NCBI RefSeq assembly: GCF_900100875.1
Contig: NZ_FNKQ01000007.1
Span: 1-64,000 of the forward strand
From: Halopelagius longus
Lineage (GTDB): Archaea > Halobacteriota > Halobacteria > Halobacteriales > Haloferacaceae
Reading direction: 5' to 3'
DNA length: 64,000 bases
The position numbers were made by a program, and so were the translations under genes. Below are positions 84 to 53,947 of the stretch, one piece after another. The notes under the pieces are model-generated. The model had not been told where the DNA came from. It did no database searches and saw nothing but the letters and a program-made list of their open reading frames with translations. Position 1 is the first letter of the stretch. Each line of letters begins with the position of its first letter.

Positions 84-89
84 AAGTAG
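1..89 (+). CDS. 3' end of a CDS with an acidic repeat tail (partial)
   Basis: The frame is open from the window edge and stops at TAG 87-89. It consists of a 12-residue repeat, TMEEADATVEAS, present about twice, followed by TMEEK. The DNA repeat unit is 36 bp, so repeat gain or loss would keep the frame. Acidic low-complexity tails are common in haloarchaeal proteins. The body of the protein lies outside the window, so its function cannot be judged. Confidence 0.55.
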   Translation, partial: MEEADATVEASTMEEADATVEASTMEEK

Positions 90-1782: not shown

Positions 1783-1835
1783 GCTGTACCCTCATCGGAC
1801 TCGATGCCATCCACGAAATCCCTGGGTTACAGCCC
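1783..1835 (+). repeat. 53-bp direct repeat, left copy (candidate att core)
   Basis: Identical to 50063-50115 over all 53 bases, in the same orientation and at the same distance ahead of the integrase start. The neighbouring coding parts of the two integrase copies have diverged, so the block is better conserved than the genes. That suits an attachment core or an essential regulatory element. Confidence 0.6.
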
Positions 1836-2078
1836 CCGAAACGCCCATCCTGTCACAAGAGGCCAACAGTGAACGTCGACGAGACGACCGAATTCACCGA
1901 GACTGTCGACCGCTACCTTCGCTCCAGCGGTGGCTTAAAGCAGTACCGCGAGACCGCCGAGACGGTCCTCAGACAGTTCGAGTCGTGGCTGCGGCGCCAA
2001 ACCCTCAACGGCTGACAGTAGTTGTGTACGCGATACAGAGGATGAGTTCAGCACGACGATCTCGTTTATTTCATACCG
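1783..2078 (+). pseudogene. internally deleted integrase relic
   Basis: This segment matches the intact integrase locus at 50063-51330. Bases 1783-1835 are identical to 50063-50115. The GTG start (1869) and roughly the first 43 codons then follow with scattered differences. Near 2000 the homology jumps to sequence that lies downstream of the intact gene's stop (around 51272 onward), including a shared stretch ending near a CTCGTTT-rich tail. The remaining frame (1869-2015) would encode only 48 residues of the N-terminal core-binding domain and lacks all catalytic residues. It is a deletion derivative of the same integrase family. Confidence 0.8.
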
Positions 2079-7702: not shown

Positions 7703-9100
7703 ATGACTCAGCAAGATCAGACTCCCCCTGGAGAAGGCCCAGGCGAGTTCTTCAAACGTATCGGTACTAAGTTATCCCGGCGGTCGTTTATGGCTAATTC
7801 GGCAATTGTCGGAAGCGGAGTGCTCACCCTGTCAGCCTCTGGGACCGAGACTGCGGCTGCCACGGGCGGCGGAGACGATGGACATGGCAACGGCGGTCAG
7901 GTGACCCCGGGCGAGATCACCGACCTCGACGTCCTCCAGTTCGCTCTGACGCTCGAAAAGCTCGAATACACCTTTTACAGAGAGGGACTAGAGACGTTCG
8001 ACCAGGAGGCCATCAATCAATCCGAGGCGGCGGAGCGAACTGGCGATTCCGCCGAATCGATTCGCGCCCGCCTCGAAAACATCCGCGACCACGAAGAGGC
8101 GCACGTCAACGTCCTCACCGCCGTCATCGAGGCGCTCGGCGGTACGCCGGTTTCGGGCCTCGAGTTCGAGTTCCCCTACGACACCTTCGACGAGTTCATC
8201 GCGCTGGCGGCCGTGTTCGAGCCGCTCGGCGTCGACGCCTACGCCGGCGCAGCACCGCTCATCGATACGAAACTGCTCGTCCCCACGGCGCTATCGATCC
8301 ACAGCGTGGAGGCCAACCATGCGGCGTATCTCCGCGATCTCAACGGCGAGAACCCGGTTCCACAGGCGTTCAACAATCCGCAAACGATGGACTCGGTCGT
8401 CGCGCAGGCGAGTCAGTTCATCGTCGGTGTGGGAGACGATCAGCAGCTCTTTGCGGTGACCATCGAGAACGTCTCCGATTCTAACACGCTGAACACGTCG
8501 GAGGGAGCCCAACCGGTGCCGCTATCGCCGGGTGCGTACGCGGTGCACTCGGAGGGGAACCCCATCTTCACGCCTGGCGAACCAGCCTCGGAGGGTCTCG
8601 CACGCCTCGCCGAGGACGGGTTCCCGCTCCGCCTAGTCAACGAGATGGATATTTCGCTGTTGCAGGAGCTCGTCGGTGACGAAACCGTCTCCGAAAGGGG
8701 CTACTTCCTGTCGCTCGAGGGCGGACTACCGCCGCTGAACCCGGGCGAGTCGGCCACGTTCTATCTCACCGCGACCGAAGGCGAGGCCCTCTCGTTCGCG
8801 ACGATGTTCGTCCCGTCCAACGACGCCTTCTTCTCCCCCGGCGAAGAGGGTATCAGTCTATTCAGCAACGGATCGCCGGTCAGCTGCGACGCCACCGACC
8901 AGCTCACACTCTGGGACGCAGGGACCGAGGAGAATCAGCCTCCTGGCATAGGGGAGGATACCAAACCGAATCAGCCACTGACGGCGATTAACGTCGGACC
9001 GGACGAGGATAGGCCAGTTCAACCTATCGAAGAGGTTGACGATGAGTTCGAGTATCCCGAGGTTTCCGATGTGATTAACGTCACTATCGAGCCACAGTAG
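7703..9100 (+). CDS. Tat-exported ferritin-like / spondin-domain fusion
   Basis: 465 residues. A twin-arginine signal (KLSRRSFMANS, about residues 24-34) is followed by a ferritin-like four-helix domain (about 70-250). This carries iron-ligand-like motifs EKLEYTFYREG, RDHEEAHVNVL and HSVEANHAAYL, in the pattern E...ExxH...ExxH. The second half (about 250-430) matches the bacterial/archaeal Spondin_N family: VTIENVSDSNTL, LSPGAYAVHSEGNP, SFATMFVPSNDAFF, LWDAGTEENQPPG. The ferritin part may bind or oxidise iron, and spondin domains are extracellular adhesion or binding modules. Export through Tat fits folding with metal in the cytoplasm. It stands alone, with the zinc-ribbon regulator divergent upstream. 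Confidence 0.85.
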   Translation: MTQQDQTPPGEGPGEFFKRIGTKLSRRSFMANSAIVGSGVLTLSASGTETAAATGGGDDGHGNGGQVTPGEITDLDVLQFALTLEKLEYTFYREGLETFDQEAINQSEAAERTGDSAESIRARLENIRDHEEAHVNVLTAVIEALGGTPVSGLEFEFPYDTFDEFIALAAVFEPLGVDAYAGAAPLIDTKLLVPTALSIHSVEANHAAYLRDLNGENPVPQAFNNPQTMDSVVAQASQFIVGVGDDQQLFAVTIENVSDSNTLNTSEGAQPVPLSPGAYAVHSEGNPIFTPGEPASEGLARLAEDGFPLRLVNEMDISLLQELVGDETVSERGYFLSLEGGLPPLNPGESATFYLTATEGEALSFATMFVPSNDAFFSPGEEGISLFSNGSPVSCDATDQLTLWDAGTEENQPPGIGEDTKPNQPLTAINVGPDEDRPVQPIEEVDDEFEYPEVSDVINVTIEPQ

Positions 9101-9989: not shown

Positions 9990-11771
9990 CTACTGCGACG
10001 TCTCTGTGTGAGTTGGGGCAGTCGAGTTCGGATTCGATTCGTTCCCCGTTCCCGTCGAGGTGTTCGTCTCCGAGTCCCCCGCGGTCCTCACTGGTTGGTC
10101 AGTCTCCCCGGGGACGCCCCGCCCGTCGTAGAAACTTCCGCCCCACTGCCCGATCCAGACGTCTTGGTTGGCGAGGTACAGCGCCTGAGCGGTCGTGAAC
10201 CGATCGTCAGTCACCTCCCACTCGTCGGCGTCGGCGAGGTACGTGACCTCTGTGTTGTAGACCGCGGCTTGACCGTACTTCCCACCCGCGTTCTGGGGGA
10301 GTGGAAGCACGTACCTCTCCTCCGGGTCAAGAGACGCCGGACGTTGGGCGCGCTGGAGTCTCCCGCGGTTAAACGTCTGGTTGAAATAGGTGGCGAAGAG
10401 GTCCTGAGCACCCTCTATATCGAGCACGGCGTCCGCCGCGTTCAGGCCGCCTGTAACGTCACCCGCGTCCCGTGCCGTGATGGTGTAGGTTTCGTCGTCG
10501 GTTCCCGTGGCGAACGTTCCGGCGTCCTCGTCCCAGAACTGTTCCATCATGCAGTTCAGGACGGCCCTCGCGGTGTTCTGGTGACTGACACCCTCGACCT
10601 GTGAAGCCCACAACAGACCCTGTCCGACGGCGCCCTGCGTGGCAGCCTGGTTCTCCGTACCGTTCTGGACCACGCCGTCGTCCGAGAGGTTGTCCTTGAT
10701 TAGGCTGGCGAGCGCGTTCGCGTACTCGGCGGCCCGTTCGCGCAAGGTTTCGCTTCCGGCGTGGGTGCCGTACCATCCCATTCCACCGAGCATCACGCCG
10801 ACATCCCGCGTGCTGCCCATCTCAACGACTTTCTCCGGCGGGAATGCGTTCATCGTGGTCTTCGCCATTCCGTCAAGGAGTTGTTGAAGCTTCTCCGAGG
10901 GGATGAGCGGCTTCGGATTGACGTACCCGTACCAACCGCCTTCGGCGAGACTTACCATGTCGGAGAGGAACCAGAGCATCGCCGCGTGCTGCATCGGTCG
11001 CGGTTCGGAGTCGACGACCTCCTTCTTCTTCGGGTTGTACCCCGACACGAGCAGTAGATTGTCGTCGTTCTTCGTGAGCGCGCCGTTACCGTCCGGCCCA
11101 CCGTCGACCAGCGTGGCCTTGATGGAGATCTGCGCAATCGTAGTGAGCATCTGCGCGCGGAACTTCGCCGCCATGTTCTCCGGGAGGAGTCCGAAGTGGT
11201 TCTGGAAGTTCTTCGCCCACGTGACGCCCTTCAGGTGGGTCCAAGCGACCGACGACGGGCTGACGACGTGCGACATCTCCTCGCGGTTCCACGCCATGGT
11301 GTTCGCGTGAATGCGCTGTACGGTAGGCGCCTCGCCGTGACCGTCTCCGTGTTGGTGTTTCCTGGAGTCAACGGTGAACGGCGCCACCGGCTTCTGAGTG
11401 AAGTGCGGGTCACCCTCGGTGAACGGTGCCATGTTCAAATTCGGATTCTTGATCGGCGGTTTATCGACCTCCGAGTGCTTCAGTATGGCCCGAAGCCGTT
11501 TTTTGAACATCTTCTTCTGTTGTTCGTTGTGCGGGAACAACACGCCCACACCGCTCACCGCGATCGTCGTGTTCATGTTGTACAACGAGTACCAGTACGA
11601 ATCCAGCGTTGCATCCTGCCACTCGTACGCGACATCCGGGGTCTCGGACTCCGCGCTCGTGAGACCGCTCATTCCCGCGACACCGCCCGCTGCTGCGGCG
11701 ATCTTGAGGAAACTACGCCGCGATGCTCCGTCGACTGTACGTTCGGTCCTTGAGTTATCGTCTCGTTTCAT
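9990..11771 (-). CDS. Tat-exported protein of unknown function, coupled to PQQ dehydrogenase
   Basis: 593 residues with a clear Tat signal (ASRRSFLKIAAAAGG) and a low-complexity Thr/Ser/Asn-rich C-terminus, suggesting a cell-surface or periplasm-like location. The body is helix-rich, with repeated patterns such as GVMLGGMGWYGTHAGSET and QGAVGQGLLWASQVEG that suggest an alpha/alpha toroid. I do not recognise a family or catalytic motif. Its ATG overlaps the stop of the upstream cupredoxin-PQQ dehydrogenase (ATGA at 11768-11771), so the two proteins are translationally coupled and may act together, for example as an enzyme and a binding or electron-transfer partner. That pairing is inference. 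Confidence 0.85.
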   Translation of the reverse strand: MKRDDNSRTERTVDGASRRSFLKIAAAAGGVAGMSGLTSAESETPDVAYEWQDATLDSYWYSLYNMNTTIAVSGVGVLFPHNEQQKKMFKKRLRAILKHSEVDKPPIKNPNLNMAPFTEGDPHFTQKPVAPFTVDSRKHQHGDGHGEAPTVQRIHANTMAWNREEMSHVVSPSSVAWTHLKGVTWAKNFQNHFGLLPENMAAKFRAQMLTTIAQISIKATLVDGGPDGNGALTKNDDNLLLVSGYNPKKKEVVDSEPRPMQHAAMLWFLSDMVSLAEGGWYGYVNPKPLIPSEKLQQLLDGMAKTTMNAFPPEKVVEMGSTRDVGVMLGGMGWYGTHAGSETLRERAAEYANALASLIKDNLSDDGVVQNGTENQAATQGAVGQGLLWASQVEGVSHQNTARAVLNCMMEQFWDEDAGTFATGTDDETYTITARDAGDVTGGLNAADAVLDIEGAQDLFATYFNQTFNRGRLQRAQRPASLDPEERYVLPLPQNAGGKYGQAAVYNTEVTYLADADEWEVTDDRFTTAQALYLANQDVWIGQWGGSFYDGRGVPGETDQPVRTAGDSETNTSTGTGNESNPNSTAPTHTETSQ

Positions 11772-13702
11772 ATGCTGTAACCGTCCGTCTCGGTTGTGGT
11801 CGTGGACTCGTTCTCCGCTTCGGACATCGCGGTTTCCGTTTCGGTTTGCGTCTCTGTCTCCGTCCCGGTATCTTCCGTCTCTTCCTCTGTCACACCGACT
11901 ATCTTGTACACTTTGCCCGTGTTCCCCGTCACGGCCGCCTTCTCCGTGGTAAGGACGTACAGATTACCCTCGTGATCGCGTCCGAACGACATGACGAATT
12001 CGCCGAGTTCGCCGTTTTCACGGCCCGCGATTTGGAGTTCCTCGATCGACCACATCTCATCGTCGTTCTCGGGCTCCGTCGCGGCGAACACGTCGCCAGC
12101 CGGCTCGGAGAACCCGCGGTTGCTCCAATTTCCGAAGACGTACTTTCCATCGAGCGGTGCCGTCGAGTCACCGACCTCCGTGGTCCCACCGGGGAGCGTT
12201 CCGTAGACGTAGCCGCCGATGACCGAGTTGCCGTCGATAACCGCCGTCGTCGTCTTGCGGTGACGGTACTCGATGATCGGGTTGAGCAGCGGTTCGCCTC
12301 CGCGGACGTCCTCGGGCGTCGAACTCGGACACTCGTCGGCCGGTTCGACCGGGTGCCCCGTACTAAAGCAGTGAGTTCCCTCTTTGACGTTCCAGCCGTA
12401 GTTCCCACCCTTCTCGACGATGTCAACCTCCTCGAAGAGATTCTGTCCGAGGTCGCCGACGAACAGGTCACCGTCGTTGAACGTCATCCGCCACGGGTTG
12501 CGCAGCCCCCACGCGTAGTATTCGTCACGACCCTCTTGGTCGATTAGGGGGTTGTCGTCGGGGATTGCGTACGCTCTGTCACCGTCCTCGTTGTCCACGT
12601 CGATGCGGTGAATGCCGCCGAGCAAGTTCTGGACGACGTCCTGACCGTTTCCGCCTTCGTTCTCGTCGTACCAATCGGAGACGTGTCCGAGGCCGGTGTC
12701 CCCCGCGCCGCCGCCGTCGCCCATCGGAACGTAGAGGTAACCGTCGTCCGGCCCGAAGCCGATTTGGCCGGCGTTGTGGTTGAGTTGCGGCGACGGGAAC
12801 GTCATGATGATGCGCTCCGAGTCGGGATCCCCTCGAGAGAGGTCCTCCGTCGCGCGGAACTCCGAAAGCACCTCCGTGTGGTCGTACTCGTGAGGGGTCC
12901 CCTCGAGGACCGGCGCGCTGTACCGAACGAAGAACCGCCGGTTCTGTTCGAAATCGGGGTGGAACGCCAACCCGAGAAGCCCGCGTTCGTCGTAACCGCC
13001 TAACTCCGGCGCACCGAGGTCCTCGGCGAAGAGTTTGTCGTCCACCGTGAGGAACGGTTCGTCGCGCAGGCCGTCCTCGTCGAGCACGTAAATCTGACCC
13101 GTCTGATCGAGAACGAACAGTCGGTCGTCCTCTTCGGGAGCGTATTCGAGCCCCAACGGGTGAGTGAGTCCGCCGGCGACCTGTTCGAGTTCGATCGTCG
13201 CGCCGGTCGGAATTTTGCGCTCGTCCTCACCAGCATCTGCCTCCGTCTCGCCGTTCCCCCCGACGTTATCGAACTGGCCGCGCATCGACCGGGGGTGAAT
13301 CTCGCAGTAGTACTCTCCCATGTTCTCCGTCGCCTCGAACTGGACGGTCTGAACGGCACCCTGCTCCGGTTCCAGTTTGGTGCGGAGAACCTGGTATCCT
13401 TCGTCGTCCACGATGACGAGGTTGTGCGTCTTACCGTCGACGTTCACCCACGTGATGGTGTACGTCTCTCCGGCTTTCACCTCCAGCGTCGGATTGGTCA
13501 CCCCCTCTATCGACGGGGGGGCTGCACCGATCCACCCCTCGACTTGGCCGTGGAGTTCAAACTGGTGGTTCTCTGCGGCGGCAACGTCTCCGAGACTGGC
13601 GAGACCACCGGCCACTACGGTCGATTTGAGAAACGTGCGGCGCGACGGATTCTCTAGCGGTAGTCGGTGGTCGGAACTTTCATCTGTCGTATTATCTTTC
13701 AT
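11768..13702 (-). CDS. cupredoxin-PQQ sugar dehydrogenase fusion
   Basis: 644 residues. A Tat signal (SRRTFLKS, 20-27) is followed by a cupredoxin domain (about 47-145) with type-1 copper ligands His93 (KTHNLV), Cys133, His136 and Met140 (YYCEIHPRSM). The rest is a soluble PQQ-dependent aldose dehydrogenase propeller: GLLGLAFHPDF, LNHNAGQIGFGPDDGYL with the PQQ-site His, AWGLRNPWRMTF, GNYGWNVKEGTHCF. Such enzymes oxidise sugars with PQQ; the built-in copper domain could take the electrons directly. A Thr/Glu-rich tail ends the protein. It is first in a two-gene operon with the unknown Tat protein. An inverted repeat, CCGTA-N8-TACGG, lies just upstream (13725-13742). No PQQ synthesis genes are present in the window. 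Confidence 0.92.
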   Translation of the reverse strand: MKDNTTDESSDHRLPLENPSRRTFLKSTVVAGGLASLGDVAAAENHQFELHGQVEGWIGAAPPSIEGVTNPTLEVKAGETYTITWVNVDGKTHNLVIVDDEGYQVLRTKLEPEQGAVQTVQFEATENMGEYYCEIHPRSMRGQFDNVGGNGETEADAGEDERKIPTGATIELEQVAGGLTHPLGLEYAPEEDDRLFVLDQTGQIYVLDEDGLRDEPFLTVDDKLFAEDLGAPELGGYDERGLLGLAFHPDFEQNRRFFVRYSAPVLEGTPHEYDHTEVLSEFRATEDLSRGDPDSERIIMTFPSPQLNHNAGQIGFGPDDGYLYVPMGDGGGAGDTGLGHVSDWYDENEGGNGQDVVQNLLGGIHRIDVDNEDGDRAYAIPDDNPLIDQEGRDEYYAWGLRNPWRMTFNDGDLFVGDLGQNLFEEVDIVEKGGNYGWNVKEGTHCFSTGHPVEPADECPSSTPEDVRGGEPLLNPIIEYRHRKTTTAVIDGNSVIGGYVYGTLPGGTTEVGDSTAPLDGKYVFGNWSNRGFSEPAGDVFAATEPENDDEMWSIEELQIAGRENGELGEFVMSFGRDHEGNLYVLTTEKAAVTGNTGKVYKIVGVTEEETEDTGTETETQTETETAMSEAENESTTTTETDGYSI

Positions 13703-14142
13703 GTTTTGGATTTCTCTTAATCAGCCGTAATCTTTTCTACGGCACGTATTGACCGGATACCCTCCGACCTATCTATCATCCATAACTATCATGACAATTC
13801 AACACAGGGCTATTCAATAAATGCAACGAGGATGTGCGACTGAGTCGCACAGAGCAGACAGGAGTTCAACTATACACACCGATGGAGGAACTCCTCGGTC
13901 GGGACTAGCCGGTTCGTCGACGCCGCTAACCGTCGAGTAGAGCGCAGAGAGCTATCCCTGCCTCCTATCCAATCGCGGCTACTGCCCCAGAAGGATTAGT
14001 GAACATACTCGGTCGTCGGGGAGAAGCGGCGGCGTTTTAACGTCCTTCCGACATCGTCCGGTAACTCGAAATATCGTACGCCGATCGATCGTCGATTCGG
14101 CATACGATCCTTCGTATTTACTACCCTCCCGATCTCCGTCGG
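13703..14142. other. intergenic between the two PQQ dehydrogenase genes
   Basis: No gene seen. It holds the promoter region of the cupredoxin-PQQ dehydrogenase (to 13743) and the 3' flank of the second dehydrogenase. Confidence 0.5.
13725..13742. promoter_or_regulatory. inverted repeat CCGTA-N8-TACGG upstream of PQQ operon
   Basis: It sits 22-40 bp before the dehydrogenase ATG and extends to GCCGTA/TACGGC (13724-13743). The geometry, CYGTA-N8-TACRG, is the same as at 16259-16276. Confidence 0.4.
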
Positions 14143-15912
14143 TTAGTTGTCAGCGGTTGTCTCGGTTCCCGACTCCGTCTCGCTGCTGTGACCCTCGTCG
14201 TCGGTCATCGTCGTTTCCTGACTCGTCTCCTCCTGGTCGGGCGGCACGATTTTGAGGACCTTCCCCGTTTCGCCCTTCGGAAGCAGTTTATCGTTGACTA
14301 GCACGTACAGTTCGCCGTCGTGGTCACGACCGAACTGACGAACGTAGTAGTCGGGCATTCCGTCCTCGTTCTCGACTACGTTCATCTGTGCCATATCCCA
14401 CAGTTCGTCGCGTGGGACCTCGTTCTTCTTGTTCTCTTTGTCGATTAGTGCGTCGCTTGGCATCTCGTCCTTACTGATCTCATCCTCCGACGGATTGATG
14501 AACTCGGACGGGACGTCCGGGTCGTCCGGGAAGTCAGGTTCTAAGTCCTCCAGCGTAACCTCTCCCTGTTGGCCGTCGGGTGGGGAAGCCGTGAGCAACC
14601 GCCCCTTCGACTGCTTCGGGTTCTTGAAGAACGCTCCATAGACGTACTTGTCTTGGAGTTCGGGGATAGCGTCGCCTTCGTAGCGGTGTCCCCCGATGAC
14701 GACTTCGCCGACTTTTTCGCCTTTGTACTCGTGCGGGAACTCCACGATGGGATCGATCAGGGGTTCGACGCCGTCGCCGGTTTTCGAGGGTGCGTAATCC
14801 GGACACTTCTTCGGCGGTTTGTCGTGATTCTCCGCGTCGAAGCAGTGGGTCCCCTCTTTGATGTTCCAGCCGTAATTGCCACCCTTCAGGACGATGTTCA
14901 CCTCCTCGAACAACGCCTCGCCGGCGTCCGCTTGGAACAGGTTCCCGTGCGAGTCGAACGAGATACCGAATGGGTTGCGAAAGCCCCACGCGTAGATTTC
15001 GTCGAGTCCGTCGGTGCCCACGAGCGGGTTGTCGTCCGGGATACCGTAGGGCTTGTCACCCTCCGTATCGTCCACGTCGAGACGGAGGATACTCCCGTAG
15101 ATATTCTCGCTTACGTCTTGGCCGTTTCCGCCGCCGTTGAGGCCGAACCAGTCGTCGACGTGGCCGTAGAAGGTGTCGTTTTTGCCGCCGCCGTCGCCGA
15201 TCGGGAAGTAGAGATAGTCGTCGGGACCGAACGCCATCGGCCCGGCGTTGTGGTTCATCTGCGGATGCGGCGTGTGGAGCAGCAGCCGTTCGCTCTCCGG
15301 GTCGGCACTATCCGTGTCCTCGTTCGCCTCGTACTCGGCAAGGACGGTGTAGTGGTCCCACCTATCGGGGAGTTCCTCGTCCGGCATGCCGCTGTAGTGC
15401 AGATAGAACTTCCTGTTCTCCTGGAAGTCGGGATGGAATTCGATGCCGAGGAGTCCTCGCTCGTCGTACTGGAGTCCGGGTTTCTCCGGAGGGAATTGGC
15501 CGTACATGTTCCCCAGTTCGACTATCCGATCTTTCACGCTGATGAACTCGTGAAGTTCACCGTCCTCGCAGTAGTACGCCTGCCCCGTCTGATCGGTGAC
15601 GAACCACCGGTCGCGGTCCTCCTCGGCGACGGCGAAGGACGTTGGAGCGGTCAATCCGCCGGCAACCTCCTCCAAGCTGACATCGACGCCCTTCTCGAAG
15701 AAACCGGCCGCTGCATCGTCGTCACCGCTCGAACTCTCTGTCGCGGCAACTACGGATATCGGAAGCGCCGCGGACGCGCCAATCGCACCCGTCGCCTGTA
15801 GAAGTCTCCGTCGTGAGGGGTTCCCTCCGAGTCCGTCAGTACCGTCTTCGGACTGTTCGTTCTTCTCTGTCTCTACGTCCTTCTCGGACTGTGTCGTGGG
15901 TTCGTCAGTCAT
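14143..15912 (-). CDS. Tat-exported PQQ-dependent sugar dehydrogenase
   Basis: 589 residues. The Tat signal follows a long acidic leader (NPSRRRLLQATGA, about 32-44). The six-bladed GSDH propeller has GLLGIEFHPDFQ, MNHNAGPMAFGPDDYLY, FPIGDGGG, AWGFRNPFGISF and GNYGWNIKEGTHCF, all matching the PQQ site of soluble aldose dehydrogenases and the paralogue at 11768-13702. Unlike that paralogue it has no cupredoxin domain, so it must pass electrons to a separate acceptor. The C-terminus is Thr/Glu-rich. It has its own promoter region, 430 bp divergent from the sorbosone-dehydrogenase-like gene. Confidence 0.92.
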   Translation of the reverse strand: MTDEPTTQSEKDVETEKNEQSEDGTDGLGGNPSRRRLLQATGAIGASAALPISVVAATESSSGDDDAAAGFFEKGVDVSLEEVAGGLTAPTSFAVAEEDRDRWFVTDQTGQAYYCEDGELHEFISVKDRIVELGNMYGQFPPEKPGLQYDERGLLGIEFHPDFQENRKFYLHYSGMPDEELPDRWDHYTVLAEYEANEDTDSADPESERLLLHTPHPQMNHNAGPMAFGPDDYLYFPIGDGGGKNDTFYGHVDDWFGLNGGGNGQDVSENIYGSILRLDVDDTEGDKPYGIPDDNPLVGTDGLDEIYAWGFRNPFGISFDSHGNLFQADAGEALFEEVNIVLKGGNYGWNIKEGTHCFDAENHDKPPKKCPDYAPSKTGDGVEPLIDPIVEFPHEYKGEKVGEVVIGGHRYEGDAIPELQDKYVYGAFFKNPKQSKGRLLTASPPDGQQGEVTLEDLEPDFPDDPDVPSEFINPSEDEISKDEMPSDALIDKENKKNEVPRDELWDMAQMNVVENEDGMPDYYVRQFGRDHDGELYVLVNDKLLPKGETGKVLKIVPPDQEETSQETTMTDDEGHSSETESGTETTADN

Positions 15913-16371
15913 GGTTCAGTTATTTTTGCTATCTCTCGTATCTGACGCTAGTCGGCATTCGTTCGGATGATCCGCATTCTGACGGCAAGCCCGGTTTCTA
16001 TCGAGCGGTAGACCCTCTGGTGCCTGTTTTGTCACCTCCTCAACACGGGGAATCTTTGCCCGAAGGTATAAAACTAGGGCAGTTGTGCAGAAACCTTAAC
16101 TACTCCAATTAAGGAGAATGCCCCCTAAGCAGTCGGATATCCGGACTGAAACGACCGTATATTGACTGAGATAACGACGATAAGAAGAACCTGAGAGACA
16201 AGACAGTCGAAGATGTGTCACTTTGGCGAACTTTAGCACTCCGGTAGTGTAGAAATGACTGTAACTTCCCTTACAGGCGTATGTCTGTAATACCTCCTCG
16301 TGTAGACCGAATAGTTACCGTCTGAGCCCTAAGCTTTAAGCAACTATGTGTGAACAAATCACAGACACCTT
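15913..16371. other. divergent promoter region, no gene
   Basis: The 459 bp between two divergent dehydrogenase genes have no supported CDS. The right part contains three CTGTAA/TTACAG half-sites (see 16259-16290). Confidence 0.5.
16259..16290. promoter_or_regulatory. triple half-site CTGTAA / TTACAG / CTGTAA
   Basis: CTGTAA (16259-16264), TTACAG (16271-16276) and CTGTAA (16285-16290) form two overlapping inverted repeats. They lie 80-110 bp upstream of the dehydrogenase start at 16372. The TTACAG-N8-CTGTAA part is shared with 9793-9812. It is a likely operator for an unknown regulator. Confidence 0.5.
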
Positions 16372-17961
16372 ATGGGAATTAAAACGAAGGCGAGGGAGAT
16401 ATTCACAAACGTCGTCTACTCTGCGGTGGCCGGAGGTACGAGTGTGAGTACGACGATGCTGTCGGAGCAACGGGAGGCGGTACGCCACCGATGGGCGAGT
16501 TGGCGTTTCCAATCGTCTTCGCGATTTCCGATGATTCGGCTTCCAGACGGCTACGAGATCGAAAAAGTGGCGGACGGACTCACGTATCCCACGTCTATCG
16601 TCTGGGACGACGAGGGCAACGCGTACGTGGCCGAAGCGGGCGGGGCGTTTCTCGACGAGGAGGACGCCTCGGCGCGAATTCTGCGCTTAGAAGGCGGAGA
16701 GGCGACAGAAGTCGTCAATCTGGACGACGAGATATATCCCGCCATCTCGGGGATGACCTGGCACGACGGTGCCTTCTACATCACCCACCGAGAGGATGAC
16801 CTGTCCGGAGCGGTGTCGAAGGTGACGCCGGACGGGGAGCGCACACAGATACTCGGGGGCATCGTCGACGCCAAGTCGGACCATCAGCTCAACGACATCC
16901 GGGTGGGAAGAGACGGGAGGATGTACGCCTGCTCCGGCATCGCAGGCAACTCCGGCTTCATGGATCAGGTCATGATTCCGTTCGTGCAGAAGGCCCCGGA
17001 CGGACACCCGACCGTCGCCGAGGATATCGTTCTCCGGGGCGTCAACATCGAACTCCCCGACTTCCGCGAGGGGGAGTCGGGAACCGTGCGAACGGGAGCG
17101 TTCGTCCCGTTCGGAACCGAAACGGAACCCGGTCAGGTGATCGAAGGACGCGATAAGTGCGGCGGCTCCATCCTCGCTTTCGACCCCGAGAACGCGGAGG
17201 ACACGGTCGAACCCCACGTGTGGGGGCTACGCAACGCTGTCGGCATCGCGTGGAACCGACGAGGCGAGATGTTCGTCGCCGAAAACGGCTACGACAACGC
17301 TCCCGGGCGGCCCATTGTCGACAACTACGACGCCACGTATCGAGTACGAGAGGGTTCGTGGTACGGTTGGCCCGATTTCACGGCCAACATGGACCCCGTC
17401 ACGAGTCCGAAGTACAAACCCACCTCCTCGGCGGTCGCGCCACCCTACATCGACGGCGAACGGCAGTCTCCGAAGCTGTCTTTCCTGATCGACCACGAGG
17501 CGAGCGGTCTAAAGCAGCCGGACAAATCGCTCGTCGCCGGCCTCCACGAGGTGAACTCGTCGCCGTCGAAGCCGGACGTCGCACCCAGGTCCTGGGGTGA
17601 GTACGCCGACCACCTGTTCGTCCCCGAGTACGGCGACCTCTCGTGGACCACGAACCCGCTCCGAGACAAACCAGCAGGGTGCAGAATTGCCGTCATCGAC
17701 ACGAAAGGCGACGGTAAACGAGTGCGGCCGTTCATCCAGAACGCAAAGCCGGGCCCGGCGTCGGTGCAGGGGCGCGCCGGGGAGGGACTCGAACGGCCGT
17801 ACGACGTGAAGTTCGGTCCCGACGGTGCGATGTACATCGTGGACTTCGGCGTGCAACGGATCAACCGCAACCGGATCGCGCAGGGTCACCTTCCGGTCGA
17901 ATGGGATCGAGAGACCGGCATGGTGTGGAAAGTTACCCCGACCGGCGCTACCAACCGGTGA
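16372..17961 (+). CDS. sorbosone-dehydrogenase-like beta-propeller protein
   Basis: 529 residues of NHL/GSDH-type propeller: GLTYPTSIVWDDEGNAYVAE, HQLNDIRVGRDGRMYACSG, VWGLRNAVGIAWNRRG, GSWYGWPDF and RPYDVKFGPDGAMYIVDFG. This is the arrangement of L-sorbosone dehydrogenases and related PQQ-type enzymes that oxidise sugars or aldehydes. No Tat or Sec signal is visible. The first about 55 residues lack family character, so translation could also start at the ATG at 16531 (MIRLPDGYEIEK). It is divergent from the second PQQ sugar dehydrogenase, with palindromic half-sites in the shared upstream region. Confidence 0.82.
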   Translation: MGIKTKAREIFTNVVYSAVAGGTSVSTTMLSEQREAVRHRWASWRFQSSSRFPMIRLPDGYEIEKVADGLTYPTSIVWDDEGNAYVAEAGGAFLDEEDASARILRLEGGEATEVVNLDDEIYPAISGMTWHDGAFYITHREDDLSGAVSKVTPDGERTQILGGIVDAKSDHQLNDIRVGRDGRMYACSGIAGNSGFMDQVMIPFVQKAPDGHPTVAEDIVLRGVNIELPDFREGESGTVRTGAFVPFGTETEPGQVIEGRDKCGGSILAFDPENAEDTVEPHVWGLRNAVGIAWNRRGEMFVAENGYDNAPGRPIVDNYDATYRVREGSWYGWPDFTANMDPVTSPKYKPTSSAVAPPYIDGERQSPKLSFLIDHEASGLKQPDKSLVAGLHEVNSSPSKPDVAPRSWGEYADHLFVPEYGDLSWTTNPLRDKPAGCRIAVIDTKGDGKRVRPFIQNAKPGPASVQGRAGEGLERPYDVKFGPDGAMYIVDFGVQRINRNRIAQGHLPVEWDRETGMVWKVTPTGATNR

Positions 17962-18012
17962 GACCGTACCCATGCACTACCTACTATCCACGACATCGGA
18001 GAACCACCTGCC

Positions 18013-20666: not shown

Positions 20667-22049
20667 TCACCCGTCGGTGAGAAGCGACGGCTCTTCGAAC
20701 GCCATCTCGACCTCGTCCAGAGTCCCGAGGAGGTCCGCTACCGTCGGAGCGACTGCGCGTGCGTCCACTTCGTCGTTTAAGACAAGTTCGGGTGCAGACG
20801 GTCCTCCGAGGGCGTACAGACCCCCGGCCGAGGGGTCGACTCTCCCGTGAGACCCACCGACTTTCGTGGGATCGAGCGACGCCAGTCCCGTCTCACCCAC
20901 GAAGAGTTCACAGGGGTCGAACCCCGGTTTCGCGTGGATGTCCATCTCGGTCGCGTACCGAGGGGCCTCGTCTCGATCGTGCCACCAGTAGTACTGAAAC
21001 CACGCGTCTCGTTCGGCAACGAGGACGACGTCGCCGGCGTTCGGGTGATCGATGTGGTGTTCGCGCTTACCGTCCGCACCCAGAACTCGCTCGACGCCGT
21101 CGAGTTCCGCTAACGCACTACGCGCTTTCTCCACGTGAGCGTCGTCGACGTACACGTGCGCTATCTGATGGTCGACCATCGCAAACGCCCGTGACCTCGC
21201 GAGGTCCACTTCTTGCCCCCCGCTTCCGTCGTCGGTCACCGAGAGCAGTCCCGCCGACCGGAGCGCGCGGTTCGGAAAGACCGGCGTCTCGACCGCATGG
21301 AAGCCGTATTCGCTCACGACGTTGACCACCGTCTCCTCCCACCGGTTGTCGGTCCGTAGTGCATCGAGGAACTCCCCGACTAGCTCATCGACCACCGCGA
21401 GTTCGGATTCGAGTTCGTCTCCCGGACCGTTCCGAAGTCCGGCGTAGTCGAGGTGAGGCACGTACACCCAGAGCATGTCGGGGTCGTACCGCTCTACTGC
21501 CTCTATGGCGGCGTTCAGTATCCACTCGCTGCTCTCCTCGTTGGCCATCGGTCCCCAGTAGTTGTGGAGAGGGAAGTGACCGTACTCCTCCTGCAGGTCG
21601 CCGTAGAAGTCGTCGGGGTTCGTCCAGCAGTTCATCTCGACGAGGTTGTCGTCCTCGTCTTCGATCGGCGACGGCGTCACGGCCACGTCTGCGGTCGTTC
21701 CGATGAGGTGTTGGAAGAAGAGGGCACCCGTCGTCAGTCCGGCGTCCTGAGCCGTCTCCCAGAGACGGTTTCGGTCGCCGCGGTCGCGTTCCCAGAAGGC
21801 GACTTCGTCTCGTTCGCGGTCGTACTGCCCGTTCGCGACGTCGCCGTGCTCCCTCGGCCCGCAGCCTTCGGCGAGGGTGGTCTGTACCGGGACGGTTACC
21901 GCAGGGAACGGCGGGCGTAGGGGCGCGACGGAGTCGAGGAGGCCGGCGAGATTAGGGGTCTTCTCCGTTCGGACGTGTTCGGGACGGAGACCGACGACGT
22001 CGAGAACGATCACCCGACCGGCACCGTCTGAGTGATCCACCGGTCTCAC
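20667..22049 (-). CDS. alkaline-phosphatase-fold phosphodiesterase (EboF-like position)
   Basis: 460 residues of the nucleotide pyrophosphatase/phosphodiesterase branch. VIVLDVVGL holds the first metal Asp, FPAVTVPVQTTLAEG the nucleophile Thr, VYVPHLDYAGL the Asp/His pair, and GGSHGRV the last His. Where many relatives have SDHG this protein reads VVSEYGF. The GTG at 22049 overlaps the stop of the inositol-phosphate synthase gene by 3 bases; a GTG at 22040 is an alternative. Most of the open frame upstream is antisense-like sequence and was rejected. Bacterial ebo clusters carry a similar enzyme with UbiA-like EboC, so it probably hydrolyses a phosphate ester in that pathway. Confidence 0.88.
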   Translation of the reverse strand: MRPVDHSDGAGRVIVLDVVGLRPEHVRTEKTPNLAGLLDSVAPLRPPFPAVTVPVQTTLAEGCGPREHGDVANGQYDRERDEVAFWERDRGDRNRLWETAQDAGLTTGALFFQHLIGTTADVAVTPSPIEDEDDNLVEMNCWTNPDDFYGDLQEEYGHFPLHNYWGPMANEESSEWILNAAIEAVERYDPDMLWVYVPHLDYAGLRNGPGDELESELAVVDELVGEFLDALRTDNRWEETVVNVVSEYGFHAVETPVFPNRALRSAGLLSVTDDGSGGQEVDLARSRAFAMVDHQIAHVYVDDAHVEKARSALAELDGVERVLGADGKREHHIDHPNAGDVVLVAERDAWFQYYWWHDRDEAPRYATEMDIHAKPGFDPCELFVGETGLASLDPTKVGGSHGRVDPSAGGLYALGGPSAPELVLNDEVDARAVAPTVADLLGTLDEVEMAFEEPSLLTDG

Positions 22050-23236
22050 TCCCCCGTGTGACTGTTCGCGTACTCTCGGAGGCGGTCGAACTGTAGGGAG
22101 AGATCGTGCTCGTCGACCCCCAGCGGTTGTTTGAAGAACGAGGCGAGTTGCGGCTGGAGTCCGGATTCGCCTCGTTCGTCCGCGAACGCGACGAGTCGAA
22201 CGAGGTCGAGTACGAGCGGTGCGGCGAGCGCCGAATCTGACCCCTCCCACGTGAACTGCATCTTCATCCGCGTCCCGAGGAACCCGTCGAACCTGATGTC
22301 GTCCCAAGCGGTCTTCCAGTCCGCTAGCGGCGGCGCGTAGTCGATACGGACGCGGTTGTGGAAGTCACCGTCGAGAATGCCTTCGAGAACGCCACCCTTG
22401 GTTTCGAGTTTCCCGGCCTCGTTCTCCTCGTCTTCGAGTACCTCGCCGTCCGCGTTCCCGAGAATGTTGTGCCCCTCCCACGAACGGACGCGCAGGTTTC
22501 GAGACGCGAACATCGGTGCGAGCGCCGACTTGACGAGCGTCTCACCCGTCTTCGCGTCGCGGCCCATGTGCGGGACTCCGTTTTTGTCCGCCAGTTCCAC
22601 GAGGCCGCCGAGCGCACTCCCCGTACTGGGAGTGAAGTTGACGTAGGGACGTCCGTCGACGAGTGCGGCGTACGCGTACAGCGAACTTGCCGGAAGGTCG
22701 CTGTCGTCGTCTGCCATCGCCCCCTCGAACGCCGAGAGCGTGTCGTACCGCTCGGGATTCGAAAGCGGGGGTTCGCTCGAAGCGGCGTTTACGACGACGA
22801 TTCTGTCGAGGTCGTTCTCTCGCGCGAACGAGCGGTAGTCGGAGCGAATCTGCTCGACGACGTCCTCGACCGACGGCTCTCTCAACGTCTCGTCCGCGAG
22901 GTCGGTGACGGCGTTTCCACAGTTGACCGCCGTACCGACTTCGATGCGCTCGTCGACCGCTTCGAGGTCTTCGCGGACTGCGTCCACGGTCTCTCTCGAT
23001 GGTATGCCGTTCTCGGACAGCGTACGCGCCGTTTCGAGGACGGACGTCCGTCGAATGTCGTGGCCGCCGAAGATCAACCGTTCGACGGAGGGGAGATCTA
23101 ACCGTGAGCAGGGCTCTCGTGCCGTCACCATCCCCGTCGTATCGGCTTCGCCGTGAGCAATCGCGCGCGCACCGACGATAGCCGTCGTCGCCACGTTACC
23201 GCGAGCGCCGACGATCCAGACGCCGGTCTTACTCAT
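22046..23236 (-). CDS. inositol-3-phosphate synthase family protein
   Basis: 396 residues of the myo-inositol-1-phosphate synthase family. GVWIVGARGNVATTA is the NAD-binding glycine loop, VVVNAASSEPP and PYVNFTPSTG form the active-site region, GRDAKTGETLVKSALAPMF is the catalytic lysine segment, and SWEGHNILGNADG follows. The enzyme makes inositol 3-phosphate from glucose 6-phosphate. In this setting a relative acting on another sugar phosphate is possible. It is translationally coupled to the phosphodiesterase downstream and divergent from the TatD gene (197 bp shared promoter). Confidence 0.9.
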   Translation of the reverse strand: MSKTGVWIVGARGNVATTAIVGARAIAHGEADTTGMVTAREPCSRLDLPSVERLIFGGHDIRRTSVLETARTLSENGIPSRETVDAVREDLEAVDERIEVGTAVNCGNAVTDLADETLREPSVEDVVEQIRSDYRSFARENDLDRIVVVNAASSEPPLSNPERYDTLSAFEGAMADDDSDLPASSLYAYAALVDGRPYVNFTPSTGSALGGLVELADKNGVPHMGRDAKTGETLVKSALAPMFASRNLRVRSWEGHNILGNADGEVLEDEENEAGKLETKGGVLEGILDGDFHNRVRIDYAPPLADWKTAWDDIRFDGFLGTRMKMQFTWEGSDSALAAPLVLDLVRLVAFADERGESGLQPQLASFFKQPLGVDEHDLSLQFDRLREYANSHTGE

Positions 23237-23433
23237 ACTGTACCCGGAGAGTCACACTGATCGGTTGTACTGCGTTCATCGCACACTATCCGTCTGTACG
23301 GAAACTCTAATCAACCCTCGGAAGGATCACCATCCGTGATTGTACTTCTAGTCCCTACGAACGGACAATTAAAAAACACATTCGTACCGAGGGCCAATTA
23401 CACCTAAACGTCTCTCTTCCGCATATTATCGCC
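23237..23433. promoter_or_regulatory. shared divergent promoter of the Ebo-like cluster
   Basis: The 197 bp between the synthase (minus) and TatD (plus) genes contain an AATTAAAAAA run at about 23367-23376 and no gene. Confidence 0.4.
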
Positions 23434-24234
23434 ATGCGCGTCATTGACCCTCACATGCACATGGTTTCTCGCTCGACGGACGACTACGAGCGGGCACGAA
23501 GTGCAGGAATCGAGTGCTGTATCGAACCAGCGTTCTGGAGCGGGACCGACAAACGGCATGCGGGGTCGTTCTTCGACTACTTCGAGCAGATCATCGAACA
23601 CGAGACCGAAAGGGCGGAACGAGTCGCCGGCATCGACCACTACGTTACGATAGCCCTCGAACCGAAGGAGGCGAACTACCCGGAGATAGCAGAGGAGATT
23701 ATGGAGAGAATCCCCGAGTACCTCAACCGGGACCCGGTAGTCGGCGTCGGAGAGATAGGCCTCGACCAAGATACGCCGGAGGAACGAGACGCCTTCCGTC
23801 GGCAGCTTCGAATGGCCGAAGAACGGGAGCTTCCGGTCATCGTCCACACGCCTCACACGAACAAACCGGAAGGCACGGAGACGATCGTCGATATGATCGA
23901 AGACGAGGACGTCACCCAAGAGCGGATAATCATCGACCACAACACCGAGAACACCATCGATACGTCGATACAGACGGACTGTTGGGTCGGCTTCACGCTG
24001 TACCCCGGAAAGATCGAGGACGACGCCGCCATCGACCTCCTCGAAGAGTACGGCACGGAGAAGATGATTCTCAACAGCGCGGCGGACTGGGATCCGTCGG
24101 ATCCGCTCGCCGTACCGAAGGCCCGCGACAAGATGCTCGACAGGGGGTGGGACCGTGAGGAGGTCCGGAAGGTTGTCTTCGAGAACCCCTACGAGTTCTT
24201 CGACCAATCGCCCAACTTCGATTACGAACCCTGA
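23434..24234 (+). CDS. TatD-family metal hydrolase (EboB-like)
   Basis: A 266-residue TIM-barrel hydrolase. DPHMHM (5-10) provides the first metal histidines, GVGEIGLDQ the Glu, IVHTPH and IIIDHNTENT the others, and ILNSAADW stands where amidohydrolases have the last Asp. Its start (MRVIDPHMHMVSRSTDDYE) resembles the TatD proteins encoded in bacterial ebo clusters more than DNase TatD. It is first in a plus-strand run with the EboE-like gene 14 bp downstream. Confidence 0.88.
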   Translation: MRVIDPHMHMVSRSTDDYERARSAGIECCIEPAFWSGTDKRHAGSFFDYFEQIIEHETERAERVAGIDHYVTIALEPKEANYPEIAEEIMERIPEYLNRDPVVGVGEIGLDQDTPEERDAFRRQLRMAEERELPVIVHTPHTNKPEGTETIVDMIEDEDVTQERIIIDHNTENTIDTSIQTDCWVGFTLYPGKIEDDAAIDLLEEYGTEKMILNSAADWDPSDPLAVPKARDKMLDRGWDREEVRKVVFENPYEFFDQSPNFDYEP

Positions 24235-24248
24235 GTACTACTTCGACC

Positions 24249-25079
24249 ATGCAATTCGGATTCTCAACCAACGCGTTCCGAAAGTACGGCCTCACCGAAT
24301 CCATCGAAGTCCTCGCCGACGCGGGCTACGACGGTGTCGAGATACTGCTAGATCAGCCGCACCTGTATCCACCAGAGGCCGACGAGGAGGAAGTCGAAGA
24401 GGTCGTACAGACGCTCGACGACCGTGAGATCGCAATCAGCAACTGCAACGCGTTCATGCTGACGGCCATCGAGGACTTTCACCACCCCTCGTTCGTCGAA
24501 CCGGACGAGGACTACCGCCGTCGGCGCGTCAAGTTCACCCTCGCCGCACTCGATACCGCCGCGGCGCTGGGGGCCGAACACATCTCCATCGAACCCGGCG
24601 GTCCCGTCCCCCATGACCACTCCCGCGAGTGGGCCACGGACACGTTCGTCAAGGGACTGACCGAGGTGTCGACCAAGGCCGAGGAGGTCGGCGTGGACGT
24701 GTTGGTCGAACCCGAGCCCGATCTGCTCATCGAGACGTCTGACGAGTTCCTCGAACTCATGGACCGCATCGACTCCCCGCGGATCGGATGTAACTTTGAC
24801 GCAGGCCACTTCTTCTGCGTTGGCGAGGACCCGACTGCGCTGGTCGAAAAGTTGGCGGACTACACGAAACACTACCACCTCGAAGACATCCCCGCTGACC
24901 GGACCCACGAGCACACGCAGCTGGGCGAAGGAGATATGGATATCGATGGATTCCTCTCGACGCTCGAAGACGTTGGCTACGACGGGTTCGTGACCGTCGA
25001 ACTGTATCCGTACGAGGAAACCGCCGCGGAGACGGCTCGAGACGCGATGGAGTACCTCGACGAGCACGGGTGGACGTGA
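24249..25079 (+). CDS. sugar-phosphate isomerase-like TIM barrel (EboE-like)
   Basis: 276 residues of the xylose-isomerase-like TIM-barrel family. GFSTNAFRKY starts strand 1, LGAEHISIEPGG and VLVEPEPDLLIET carry metal-ligand Glu, IGCNFDAGHFF the Asp/His, and YHLEDIPADRTHEH and TVELYPYEE close the site. This family includes EboE of ebo clusters. The product is unknown. The gene overlaps the EboC-like prenyltransferase start by 10 bp. Confidence 0.88.
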   Translation: MQFGFSTNAFRKYGLTESIEVLADAGYDGVEILLDQPHLYPPEADEEEVEEVVQTLDDREIAISNCNAFMLTAIEDFHHPSFVEPDEDYRRRRVKFTLAALDTAAALGAEHISIEPGGPVPHDHSREWATDTFVKGLTEVSTKAEEVGVDVLVEPEPDLLIETSDEFLELMDRIDSPRIGCNFDAGHFFCVGEDPTALVEKLADYTKHYHLEDIPADRTHEHTQLGEGDMDIDGFLSTLEDVGYDGFVTVELYPYEETAAETARDAMEYLDEHGWT

Positions 25080-26023
25080 GGGTGGCGCTCGGGCGGCCCG
25101 GTCTCAGGCGAACGCTCTCGGGATATGCGGCGCTCGTACGCGTACCGAATCTATTCACTGCGCCGCCGGACGTATTAGCGGGTATCGCCCTCGCAACTGC
25201 GGTCGGTACTTCTGTTTTGGTGACCGAGGCCCTCGGTGCAGCCGTCGCATCGGTACTCCTCTATGCGGGCGGGACGACCCTGAACGACTACTTCGACGCC
25301 GAAGTGGACGCCGAGGAGCGCCCTGAACGTCCCATCCCTTCGGGCCGTGTCTCGCGAACTACCGCACTTGCGTTGGGAACTGCGTTGCTCGTGAGCGGCG
25401 TCGCCGTGGCTTTCGTCGCTGCGGGGCTCTCTGCAGGGTTCGTGGCTGCACTCGTCGCCCTCGTCGTCGTGTTGTACGATGGCCCGCTCAAAGGTGGACC
25501 CGCGGGGTTCCTTGCGATGGGTACGGCTCGCGGACTCAACGTCACCCTCGGATTCGCCAGTACGTCCGCCATCGACCTCTATGCGGCGCCGTCCGTCACC
25601 GTCCCGCCGTGGCTGTTTGTGGTCCCGCCCACCGTCACTCTCTACGTGGCAGCGTTCACGTATATGGCGGCACGAGAAGCGACCGGTGCGGACAGACGAG
25701 CCGTCGTCGTCGCCGCGATGGGTGCAGCGATGGTCACGCCGGTTCCGCCCGTCGTCGTACTGAGTGTCGATACGGAACTCATCCTGGTCGGCGTCTCGAC
25801 GTTACTTGCGGGAGCCTTCATCACATGGACTGGCCGGGCGTTACAGAGGGCGTATCGCAATCCGAGCCCCGAAGTCGTCGGTCCGGCAATCGGGACTTGT
25901 GTCCTCGCACTTATCGTGTTAGACGCCGCGTTTGCCGCGGGGGAGGGTCTCGGTTGGGCGCTCGGTACGCTCTCGTTTTTAATTCCCGCCGCTGGACTGA
26001 CCCGTGCGTTCGACATATCATAA
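25070..26023 (+). CDS. eboC: UbiA-like prenyltransferase (EboC-like)
   Basis: A 317-residue polytopic membrane protein of the UbiA superfamily. The first Asp-rich motif is NDYFDAEVDAEERPERP (about residues 75-91), binding prenyl diphosphate through magnesium. The second region, VVLYDGPLKGGPAG, has a single Asp. About eight hydrophobic helices are visible. It starts at GTG 25070 inside the end of the EboE-like gene, so translation is coupled. In ebo clusters EboC is thought to attach a prenyl group to, or help move, an unknown precursor. The symbol rests on family and context, not on a demonstrated function. Confidence 0.85.
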   Translation: MDVRVALGRPGLRRTLSGYAALVRVPNLFTAPPDVLAGIALATAVGTSVLVTEALGAAVASVLLYAGGTTLNDYFDAEVDAEERPERPIPSGRVSRTTALALGTALLVSGVAVAFVAAGLSAGFVAALVALVVVLYDGPLKGGPAGFLAMGTARGLNVTLGFASTSAIDLYAAPSVTVPPWLFVVPPTVTLYVAAFTYMAAREATGADRRAVVVAAMGAAMVTPVPPVVVLSVDTELILVGVSTLLAGAFITWTGRALQRAYRNPSPEVVGPAIGTCVLALIVLDAAFAAGEGLGWALGTLSFLIPAAGLTRAFDIS

Positions 26024-26071
26024 CTCTATCAATTTTTAACTTATTTACGAACGGCTGTCGTGTCTCTCCAC

Positions 26072-26920
26072 ATGGTGCAATTAGCGTTCTCGACGAATGC
26101 GTTCACACGGTACTCGCTCCCCGAGGCGATACGTCGGATCGCCGACCATGGGTACGCCGGCGTCGAGCTTTTGGGAGATACGCCTCACGCGTACTTTCCG
26201 GAGTTCGACGACGACGAGCGAACGGCCGTGTTGGACGCCCTCGACGAAACTGGTCTCGAAGTGTCGAACGTCAACGCGAACACCGCGATGGGGTATTATG
26301 ACGACGCACCGCCGTCGTCGTTCTTCGACCCGAGTATCGTCACGGCTAACGACGGAGAGCGTGAGTGGCGCGTTGAGTACACGAAACGTGCGATAGACCT
26401 CGCAGAAGTGACCGATGCGCCCGCAGTTTGCGTCGCGACGGGCCGTCCGCTTCCCGGTAATCCGCCAGACCGAGCGTACGACTATCTCCGAGACTCCTTA
26501 CACGAGATTCTCGATTACGCCGAACCGCGCGGCGTTGAGGTGGGAATCGAGTTCGAACCCGAACTCCTTGTGGAGTGTACCGACGAAGTACTCGAACTCA
26601 TCGACGATATCGGCCGCGACTCGTTGGGGATTAATCTCGACATCGGTCACGCTGCCGTGTACGGGGAGGACCTCACGGAGACGATTCACCGCAGTGAGGG
26701 ACACATCACCGGCGTCCACCTAGAGGACATCGAGGGAGGGCGGCGAGGAAAGCACTATCATCTCATCCCCGAAGAAGGTGACTTGGATTTCGGGGCAGTT
26801 TTCGACGCATTCGACGATATCGCCTACGAGGGGTTCGCGACCCTCGAACTGTACACCTACCCCGATAAACCGGACGAGGCCGCGAAGGAGGCTTACGAGG
26901 CGCTCTCGGGACATGTCTGA
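26072..26920 (+). CDS. second EboE-like sugar-phosphate isomerase TIM barrel
   Basis: A 282-residue paralogue of the protein at 24249-25079. AFSTNAFTRYSLPEA, VEVGIEFEPELLVECTDEVL, LGINLDIGHAAVYGED, GVHLEDIEGGRRGKHYH and LELYTYPDKP mark the barrel and metal site. An AT-rich promoter-like stretch (TTTTTAACTTATTTA, about 26032-26046) precedes ATG 26072, so it may have its own promoter. Two such barrels in one cluster suggest two successive isomerase or hydrolase steps. Confidence 0.87.
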   Translation: MVQLAFSTNAFTRYSLPEAIRRIADHGYAGVELLGDTPHAYFPEFDDDERTAVLDALDETGLEVSNVNANTAMGYYDDAPPSSFFDPSIVTANDGEREWRVEYTKRAIDLAEVTDAPAVCVATGRPLPGNPPDRAYDYLRDSLHEILDYAEPRGVEVGIEFEPELLVECTDEVLELIDDIGRDSLGINLDIGHAAVYGEDLTETIHRSEGHITGVHLEDIEGGRRGKHYHLIPEEGDLDFGAVFDAFDDIAYEGFATLELYTYPDKPDEAAKEAYEALSGHV

Positions 26921-53497: not shown

Positions 53498-53517
53498 ATC
53501 CTTCGTTCCTCTTAATT

Positions 53518-53798: not shown

Positions 53799-53947
53799 CC
53801 AAGAAGGTGCCGACCTTTCAGTAATTCCACATCGAAGCCTCCCTCAATCTCCCAGACACCTGTGATACCAAGACAAAGCAGTGCCAGGGCCCAGATAGCA
53901 CGAACGCCGAGTTGATTTAAGCACGTATCACCAACCCTTCTGCACAG

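Follow-up and report, generated by a model that had tools for sequence, protein, structure and literature searches.

A compact Ebo-like gene set with myo-inositol-1-phosphate synthase in Halobacteria

In a stretch of 64,000 nucleotides from Halopelagius longus (contig NZ_FNKQ01000007.1, positions 1 to 64,000; called the window below), the six genes lying between positions 20667 and 26920 constitute a compact Ebo-like system in which the predicted ring-forming enzyme is myo-inositol-1-phosphate synthase (MIPS), and which is a variant rather than a canonical ebo operon. They form two divergent transcripts, one running from MIPS to a phosphodiesterase (PDE) on the minus strand, the other from a TatD-family hydrolase through a short TIM barrel (E1) and a UbiA-superfamily prenyltransferase to a second short TIM barrel (E2) on the plus strand. 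Strong Pfam matches for all six bear out the genes and families listed in an earlier note on this DNA, and with this locus and its relatives Ebo-like systems appear to extend to Archaea. The interpretation offered in that note, an archaeal version of the bacterial ebo cluster using MIPS, is partly supported: the TatD, UbiA and PDE proteins are indeed homologous to EboB, EboC and EboF, but the TIM barrels are not EboE, and the association with MIPS, although conserved across Halobacteria, is not specific to archaea.

Family placement of the six proteins

The cluster TatD protein is 40-45% identical to bacterial EboB and falls with it, apart from archaeal TatD, in a clade with support of 100; its identity to TatD from other archaea of the phylum does not exceed 33%. 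The PDE is 35-45% identical to bacterial EboF and contains the EboF motifs YxPHLDY, SEYG, DHQxAHV, DIHxKPGxDP and GSHGR, none of which is present in the genome's own paralogs (where, for instance, SEYG is replaced by SDHG).

For the UbiA protein the best-scoring family is EboC (NF035940, 189.6 bits), followed by the SCO3242 family at 167.6 bits, with all others at 82 bits or below. Alignments of haloarchaeal and bacterial members reveal that it keeps the first Asp-rich motif, NDxxDxxxD, while the second, DxxxD, is reduced to a single conserved Glu, E203, as it is in most bacterial EboC proteins. The nearest solved fold to its AlphaFold model (pLDDT 87.3) is that of digeranylgeranylglyceryl phosphate (DGGGP) synthase (6m31), with which it shares the UbiA fold and the first Asp-rich motif, but from which it differs in lacking the second motif and in belonging, by hidden Markov model (HMM) score, to a separate family. 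In vitro an EboC (Ubi-297) transfers farnesyl groups to quinolines (PMC9235831), so that for this family prenyl transfer has a firm footing, though a cyclitol acceptor does not.

The two TIM barrels had been described in the earlier note as EboE-like, a description that has to be dropped, as in a tree both fall outside the EboE clade with support of 100. E1 pairs as sister with a TIM barrel that adjoins UbiA in Desulfobacula, next to planctomycete ones beside UbiA or MIPS, whilst E2 is sister (support 94) to gammaproteobacterial TIM barrels that stand beside a UbiA-EboA-TatD-EboE-PDE group. Judged from this placement, they represent short TIM families of their own, whose members stand on either side of UbiA or next to MIPS in Planctomycetota, Desulfobacula and Gammaproteobacteria. 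Both keep a Glu-Asp-His-Glu metal tetrad, which is typical of metal-dependent ketose epimerases and isomerases, and both resemble IolI, IolO and fructoselysine epimerase.

MIPS aligns over its full length with the enzyme of Archaeoglobus fulgidus (1u1i; E 1e-86), the closest among solved structures, and is 45-48% identical to MIPS of Streptomyces ebo clusters. Residues D227, N257, D263, K276, K280, K308, D334 and K369, which we take to align with the catalytic residues of the A. fulgidus enzyme, are invariant in haloarchaeal and Streptomyces members, and from this conserved active site MIPS activity (glucose-6-phosphate to myo-inositol phosphate) is predicted. The resemblance does not extend to context: in A. 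fulgidus the enzyme serves other inositol compounds, whereas here it goes with the Ebo-like genes.

Conservation across Halobacteria and missing Ebo components

An ortholog of the EboC-like UbiA protein is present in 37 of 292 sampled Halobacteria genomes, or roughly one in eight (including one case where the gene is split across two contigs); these orthologs score at least 141 bits, as compared with 54 bits or less for matches in the remaining genomes. MIPS occurs in the same 37 genomes and in one more, so that UbiA is found in 37 of the 38 genomes with MIPS (Fisher p 3.4e-46, a value that counts related species though they are not independent). Such co-occurrence, and conservation of the gene set in other genomes, had been proposed in the earlier note as ways of checking it, and both now speak in its favour. 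The other outcome that the note named as refuting, a phylogenetic position away from the Ebo clades, is seen for the TIM barrels but not for TatD. When the approximately 17 kb around each UbiA ortholog were compared for gene content, all six families were found together in most of 37 further haloarchaeal loci, mostly as the same divergent transcript pair, although in one locus (L069) all six genes are co-directional, and others are truncated at a contig end or encode MIPS and the PDE at another place. The distribution is patchy over at least 16 haloarchaeal genera, and in Halobaculum, Halocatena, Haladaptatus and Natronococcus the set is carried on named plasmids. A grouping of this kind is far beyond chance.

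Haloarchaeal MIPS genes also occur away from any Ebo-like neighbours (loci L130, L131, L132 and L134); one of these, L131 of Halorussus aquaticus, is an unclustered copy present in addition to a clustered one (L125).

Several proteins of the bacterial system were not found. EboA (NF035938) gave no match in any of the 37 cluster genomes, that of the window included, although this model does detect it, at 143-172 bits, among actinomycetes, Gammaproteobacteria and some planctomycetes; EboE, the long TIM barrel (NF035939), gave none in these 37 genomes at 1e-20, as against 398-444 bits in genomes outside them; and the EboD superfamily, comprising sugar phosphate cyclases of dehydroquinate-synthase type (PF01761), had no match in the window's genome. 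The absence of EboA and EboD noted earlier therefore stands. A tblastn search for EboG, which is short and poorly conserved, made with one Deinococcus query, found no match in the haloarchaeal loci that it covered. It is because the three defining proteins EboA, EboD and EboE were looked for and not found that the locus is not described here as a canonical ebo operon. What the window and the other haloarchaeal loci do contain is MIPS, UbiA, a short TIM barrel, TatD and a PDE, with UbiA adjoining the short TIM barrel, and it is this combination that is meant by a MIPS-type set.

Bacterial counterparts

Bacteroidetes, Cyanobacteria, Proteobacteria and eustigmatophyte plastids have the ebo cluster eboA-F, which likewise keeps genes for TIM-barrel enzymes, a ring-former, a hydrolase and a prenyltransferase close together, and the EboB-type TatD, EboC-like UbiA and EboF-type PDE are common to both systems; the haloarchaeal set differs in being archaeal, in having MIPS as ring-former, in its pair of short TIM barrels, which come from other families, and in the lack of any EboA, EboE or EboD so far found. 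MIPS was not seen in the stretches from Aureibacter, Azospirillum, Deinococcus, Mycetohabitans, Salipiger and Ketogulonicigenium that have an annotated EboD-type cyclase. It is, on the other hand, present in some bacterial clusters, and in annotated actinobacterial ones it takes the place of EboD. Streptomyces plasmids carry MIPS, a SCO3242-family UbiA, a TIM barrel, EboA, TatD, EboE and a PDE together; similar MIPS-bearing clusters occur in Nonomuraea, Planosporangium and Haloactinopolyspora, and in Gemmatirosa MIPS is accompanied by a TIM barrel, UbiA, TatD, PDE, EboE and EboG. These actinomycete SCO3242-type clusters (e.g. NZ_CP108303 and NZ_CP109116) resemble the haloarchaeal one in placing MIPS beside UbiA, a short TIM barrel, TatD and PDE, but they keep EboA and EboE, have one short TIM barrel where haloarchaea have two, and run in a single transcript direction.

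A further resemblance is to planctomycetes. In Adhaeretor, Aeoliella and others an EboC-like UbiA gene lies between two short TIM barrels, usually followed by a PDE, and in several planctomycete genomes with this TIM-UbiA-TIM-PDE order neither EboA nor EboE was found. Planctomycete, Desulfobacula and gammaproteobacterial genomes hold MIPS along with the rest of the set, and in Adhaeretor all six families are present, so that the haloarchaeal set consists of the same six families as these planctomycetes have, brought together at a single locus. Taking the loci of Adhaeretor mobilis, Aeoliella and a Desulfobacula metagenome-assembled genome together, the likeness consists of UbiA with two short TIM barrels and a PDE, MIPS in the same genome, TatD in several, and EboA and EboE not found; the differences are that MIPS, and frequently TatD as well, is encoded away from this locus and that the second TIM barrel is nearer to the actinomycete one. 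Among bacterial MIPS proteins, those most similar to the haloarchaeal ones come mainly from planctomycetes, but most are not in clusters, and the use of planctomycete MIPS as proof of ebo clusters was accordingly rejected, the link being made only through the UbiA loci. Yurchenko et al. (PMC5133447) remarked that eboD is missing from two of three Planctomycetes and that the ebo genes there are unclustered; MIPS may explain the lack of eboD in those strains. No report of a haloarchaeal ebo system, or of MIPS in ebo clusters, was found in the open literature (subscription journals and preprints lay outside the search).

Proposed function and alternatives

The reading that we favour, with a probability of roughly 0.55, is that of a compact inositol-type Ebo-like system making a membrane-anchored cyclitol carrier or cofactor for extracytoplasmic copper or quinoprotein oxidases. 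It is grounded in which genes are present and how far they are conserved, in their co-occurrence, in family placement and conserved residues, and in the enrichment of certain neighbours, the chemistry being inferred. On this scheme MIPS would cyclise glucose-6-phosphate to myo-inositol phosphate, the TIM barrels and TatD would isomerise or trim the cyclitol, the EboC-like UbiA would, to judge from its family, add a prenyl chain (in haloarchaea probably geranylgeranyl) and so render the product membrane-bound, and the EboF-type PDE would hydrolyse a phosphate ester; a putative prenylated inositol-phosphate product is plausible. The membrane-anchored cyclitol might then let cluster-adjacent extracytoplasmic copper or quinoprotein oxidases act on their substrate, a part like that of the Ebo proteins towards ScyE: in Nostoc ebo mutants the scytonemin monomer is not passed to periplasmic ScyE (PMC6282210).

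The involvement of oxidases is suggested by what lies within about 8 kb of the cluster. Secreted proteins of glucose/sorbosone-dehydrogenase, multicopper-oxidase or PQQ type are encoded near 22 of 40 haloarchaeal loci, compared with 3 of 60 control regions of similar size elsewhere in the same genomes (p 1.7e-8); they are seen in 13 of 19 genera, and taking one locus per genus gives a median p of 2e-6. At five loci the dehydrogenase match covers only about 100 residues and is probably to a copper domain. Open reading frames (ORFs) with a twin-arginine (Tat) signal are in general not clearly in excess (13 of 40 loci, 14 of 60 controls), and the enrichment therefore concerns particular families rather than exported proteins at large. 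In a Streptomyces cluster a ScyD/ScyE-family protein and a multicopper oxidase adjoin, the latter 33% identical to a haloarchaeal one, and by analogy such neighbours recall ScyE of scytonemin synthesis. The enrichment is nevertheless a lead and not proof, because the neighbour classes were picked after looking, two of the queries came from the window itself, and Tat-signal genes are not enriched.

That choice of classes is one of several points that weigh against the oxidase-linked cyclitol reading. There is no recognised secreted oxidase neighbour at 18 of the 40 loci; the cluster contains no exporter or flippase; and the EboC acceptors tested so far are all aromatic, with no cyclitols among them. 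The UbiA score falls short of the NF035940 cut-off of 250 bits, and a tree including the genome's own paralogs had such long branches that it gave no usable position, for which reason the protein was assessed through HMM scores and residue patterns. Finally, both EboA and EboE are essential for scytonemin in Nostoc, and given that they are absent here functional equivalence cannot be assumed.

Among the alternatives, synthesis of inositol phospholipids or osmolytes would have MIPS feeding archaetidylinositol or di-inositol phosphate, with UbiA as a spare ether-lipid (DGGGP) synthase. The closest solved structures point this way, being the archaeal A. fulgidus enzyme in the one case and DGGGP synthase in the other; however, the genome has other UbiA proteins, of which the next best scores 71.9 bits to the EboC model (as against 189.3) and keeps the second Asp motif that the cluster protein has lost, neither the window nor any of the 37 loci contains a CDP-alcohol phosphotransferase motif, and neither TatD, EboF nor the two TIM barrels have a known role in such pathways, all of which makes this option very unlikely. 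It also seems improbable that the locus is concerned with cyclitol or 3-keto-sugar metabolism, where the TIM barrels, TatD and PDE would process inositol-like or keto-sugars coming from secreted dehydrogenases and UbiA would be a passenger. Such a role would suit the similarity of the TIM barrels to sugar and inositol epimerases and isomerases, and also the secreted glucose/sorbosone dehydrogenases and the 3-keto-disaccharide hydrolase fusion near some loci, but MIPS is biosynthetic, the conserved set has no inositol dehydrogenase, and UbiA is as constant as the rest, lying between two TIM barrels in Halobacteria and Planctomycetota alike.

Metabolite translocation of the kind suggested in Nostoc, with the Ebo-like proteins moving some haloarchaeal metabolite and having no product of their own, would be in keeping with the secreted oxidases that adjoin the haloarchaeal clusters. 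Against this, five of the six proteins are soluble enzymes by family, the remaining one having the fold of a prenyltransferase, the conserved set includes no transporter, and no biosynthetic gene cluster common to the loci was found beside them; we regard it, too, as unlikely.

If the preferred reading, a membrane-anchored cyclitol for extracytoplasmic oxidases, is extended to both domains, Ebo systems of Bacteria and Archaea would make a prenylated cyclitol for secreted copper or quinoprotein oxidases, with an interchangeable ring-former (an EboD-type cyclase or MIPS) and an inositol-derived product in Halobacteria. This generalisation is tentative, and we hold it to be possible rather than probable; it would connect Ebo-like systems in both domains with secreted copper and quinone enzymes. 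So far the ebo product has only been proposed, as a cyclitol derived from sedoheptulose 7-phosphate (Yurchenko et al., PMC5133447). With MIPS as ring-former, the substrate and product of which are known, there would be a defined entry point to what ebo genes make, and the cluster is present in species of Haloferax (H. prahovense and H. massiliensis), a genus with working genetics.

Layout of the locus and its surroundings

The coordinates of the six genes and of associated features are collected in Table 1. The start of the PDE gene is placed nearer 22049 than the longest-ORF start at 22307, which produces a GTGA overlap with the MIPS stop; the E1 and UbiA ORFs overlap by 10 bases. The start/stop overlaps or short gaps described in the earlier note are thus present.

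Table 1 Features of the Ebo-like locus of H. longus and associated genes (window coordinates).
Feature	Coordinates	Strand	Evidence
EboF-type phosphodiesterase (nucleotide pyrophosphatase/phosphodiesterase superfamily)	20667..22049	-	Pfam PF01663 4.5e-48
MIPS	22046..23236	-	Pfam 5.7e-49
Intergenic gap common to both divergent transcripts, 197 bases	23237..23433	.	sequence
EboB-type TatD-family metal-dependent hydrolase	23434..24234	+	Pfam TatD 1.5e-18
Short TIM barrel E1 (ketose-epimerase/isomerase fold, not EboE)	24249..25079	+	AP_endonuc_2 PF01261 1.8e-47
EboC-like UbiA-superfamily membrane prenyltransferase	25070..26023	+	Pfam UbiA 5.7e-19; NF035940 EboC 189.6 bits
Short TIM barrel E2 (E1 paralog, 38% identical)	26060..26920	+	AP_endonuc_2 PF01261 7.7e-43
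Associated, not core: exported protein, plastocyanin-like and glucose/sorbosone dehydrogenase domains	11768..13702	-	PF07995 and PF00127; sub-threshold Tat signal
Associated, not core: glucose/sorbosone dehydrogenase-type, twin-Arg N terminus	14143..15912	-	PF07995 1.9e-32
Associated, not core: beta-propeller, partial ScyD/ScyE-family match	16372..17961	+	NF033206 67 bits, cut-off 80

The associated genes are part of a close-packed group of redox proteins, twin-Arg or beta-propeller in type, that adjoins the cluster (9990-18000). Also in this group is a 593-residue protein with a twin-Arg N terminus (9990-11771), for which no Pfam or NCBIfam match was found, and further out, at 7703-9100, there is a ferritin-like protein with a spondin domain and, again, a twin-Arg N terminus. 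Beside EboD-type ebo genes of Bacteroidota, Betaproteobacteria and Cyanobacteria there is a conserved pair, made up of a hypothetical protein of about 590-675 residues and a ferritin-like one, with 33-40% identity (locus L084, 3171-6231; L226, 1668-4750; L227, 10981-14262); the idea that the proteins at 7703-9100 and 9990-11771 might be homologs of this pair was rejected, as there is no similarity. Near another haloarchaeal Ebo-like cluster (L042, 3243-6785) there is a fusion protein of 1180 residues that combines 3-keto-disaccharide hydrolase, glucose/sorbosone dehydrogenase, laminin-G and dockerin domains.

The contig to which the window belongs is 115,664 bases long, in a genome of 3.87 Mb. 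At both ends of the window (1-2000 and 52001-64000) the G+C content drops from about 0.60 to 0.47-0.55, which suggests acquired stretches on this 115-kb contig.

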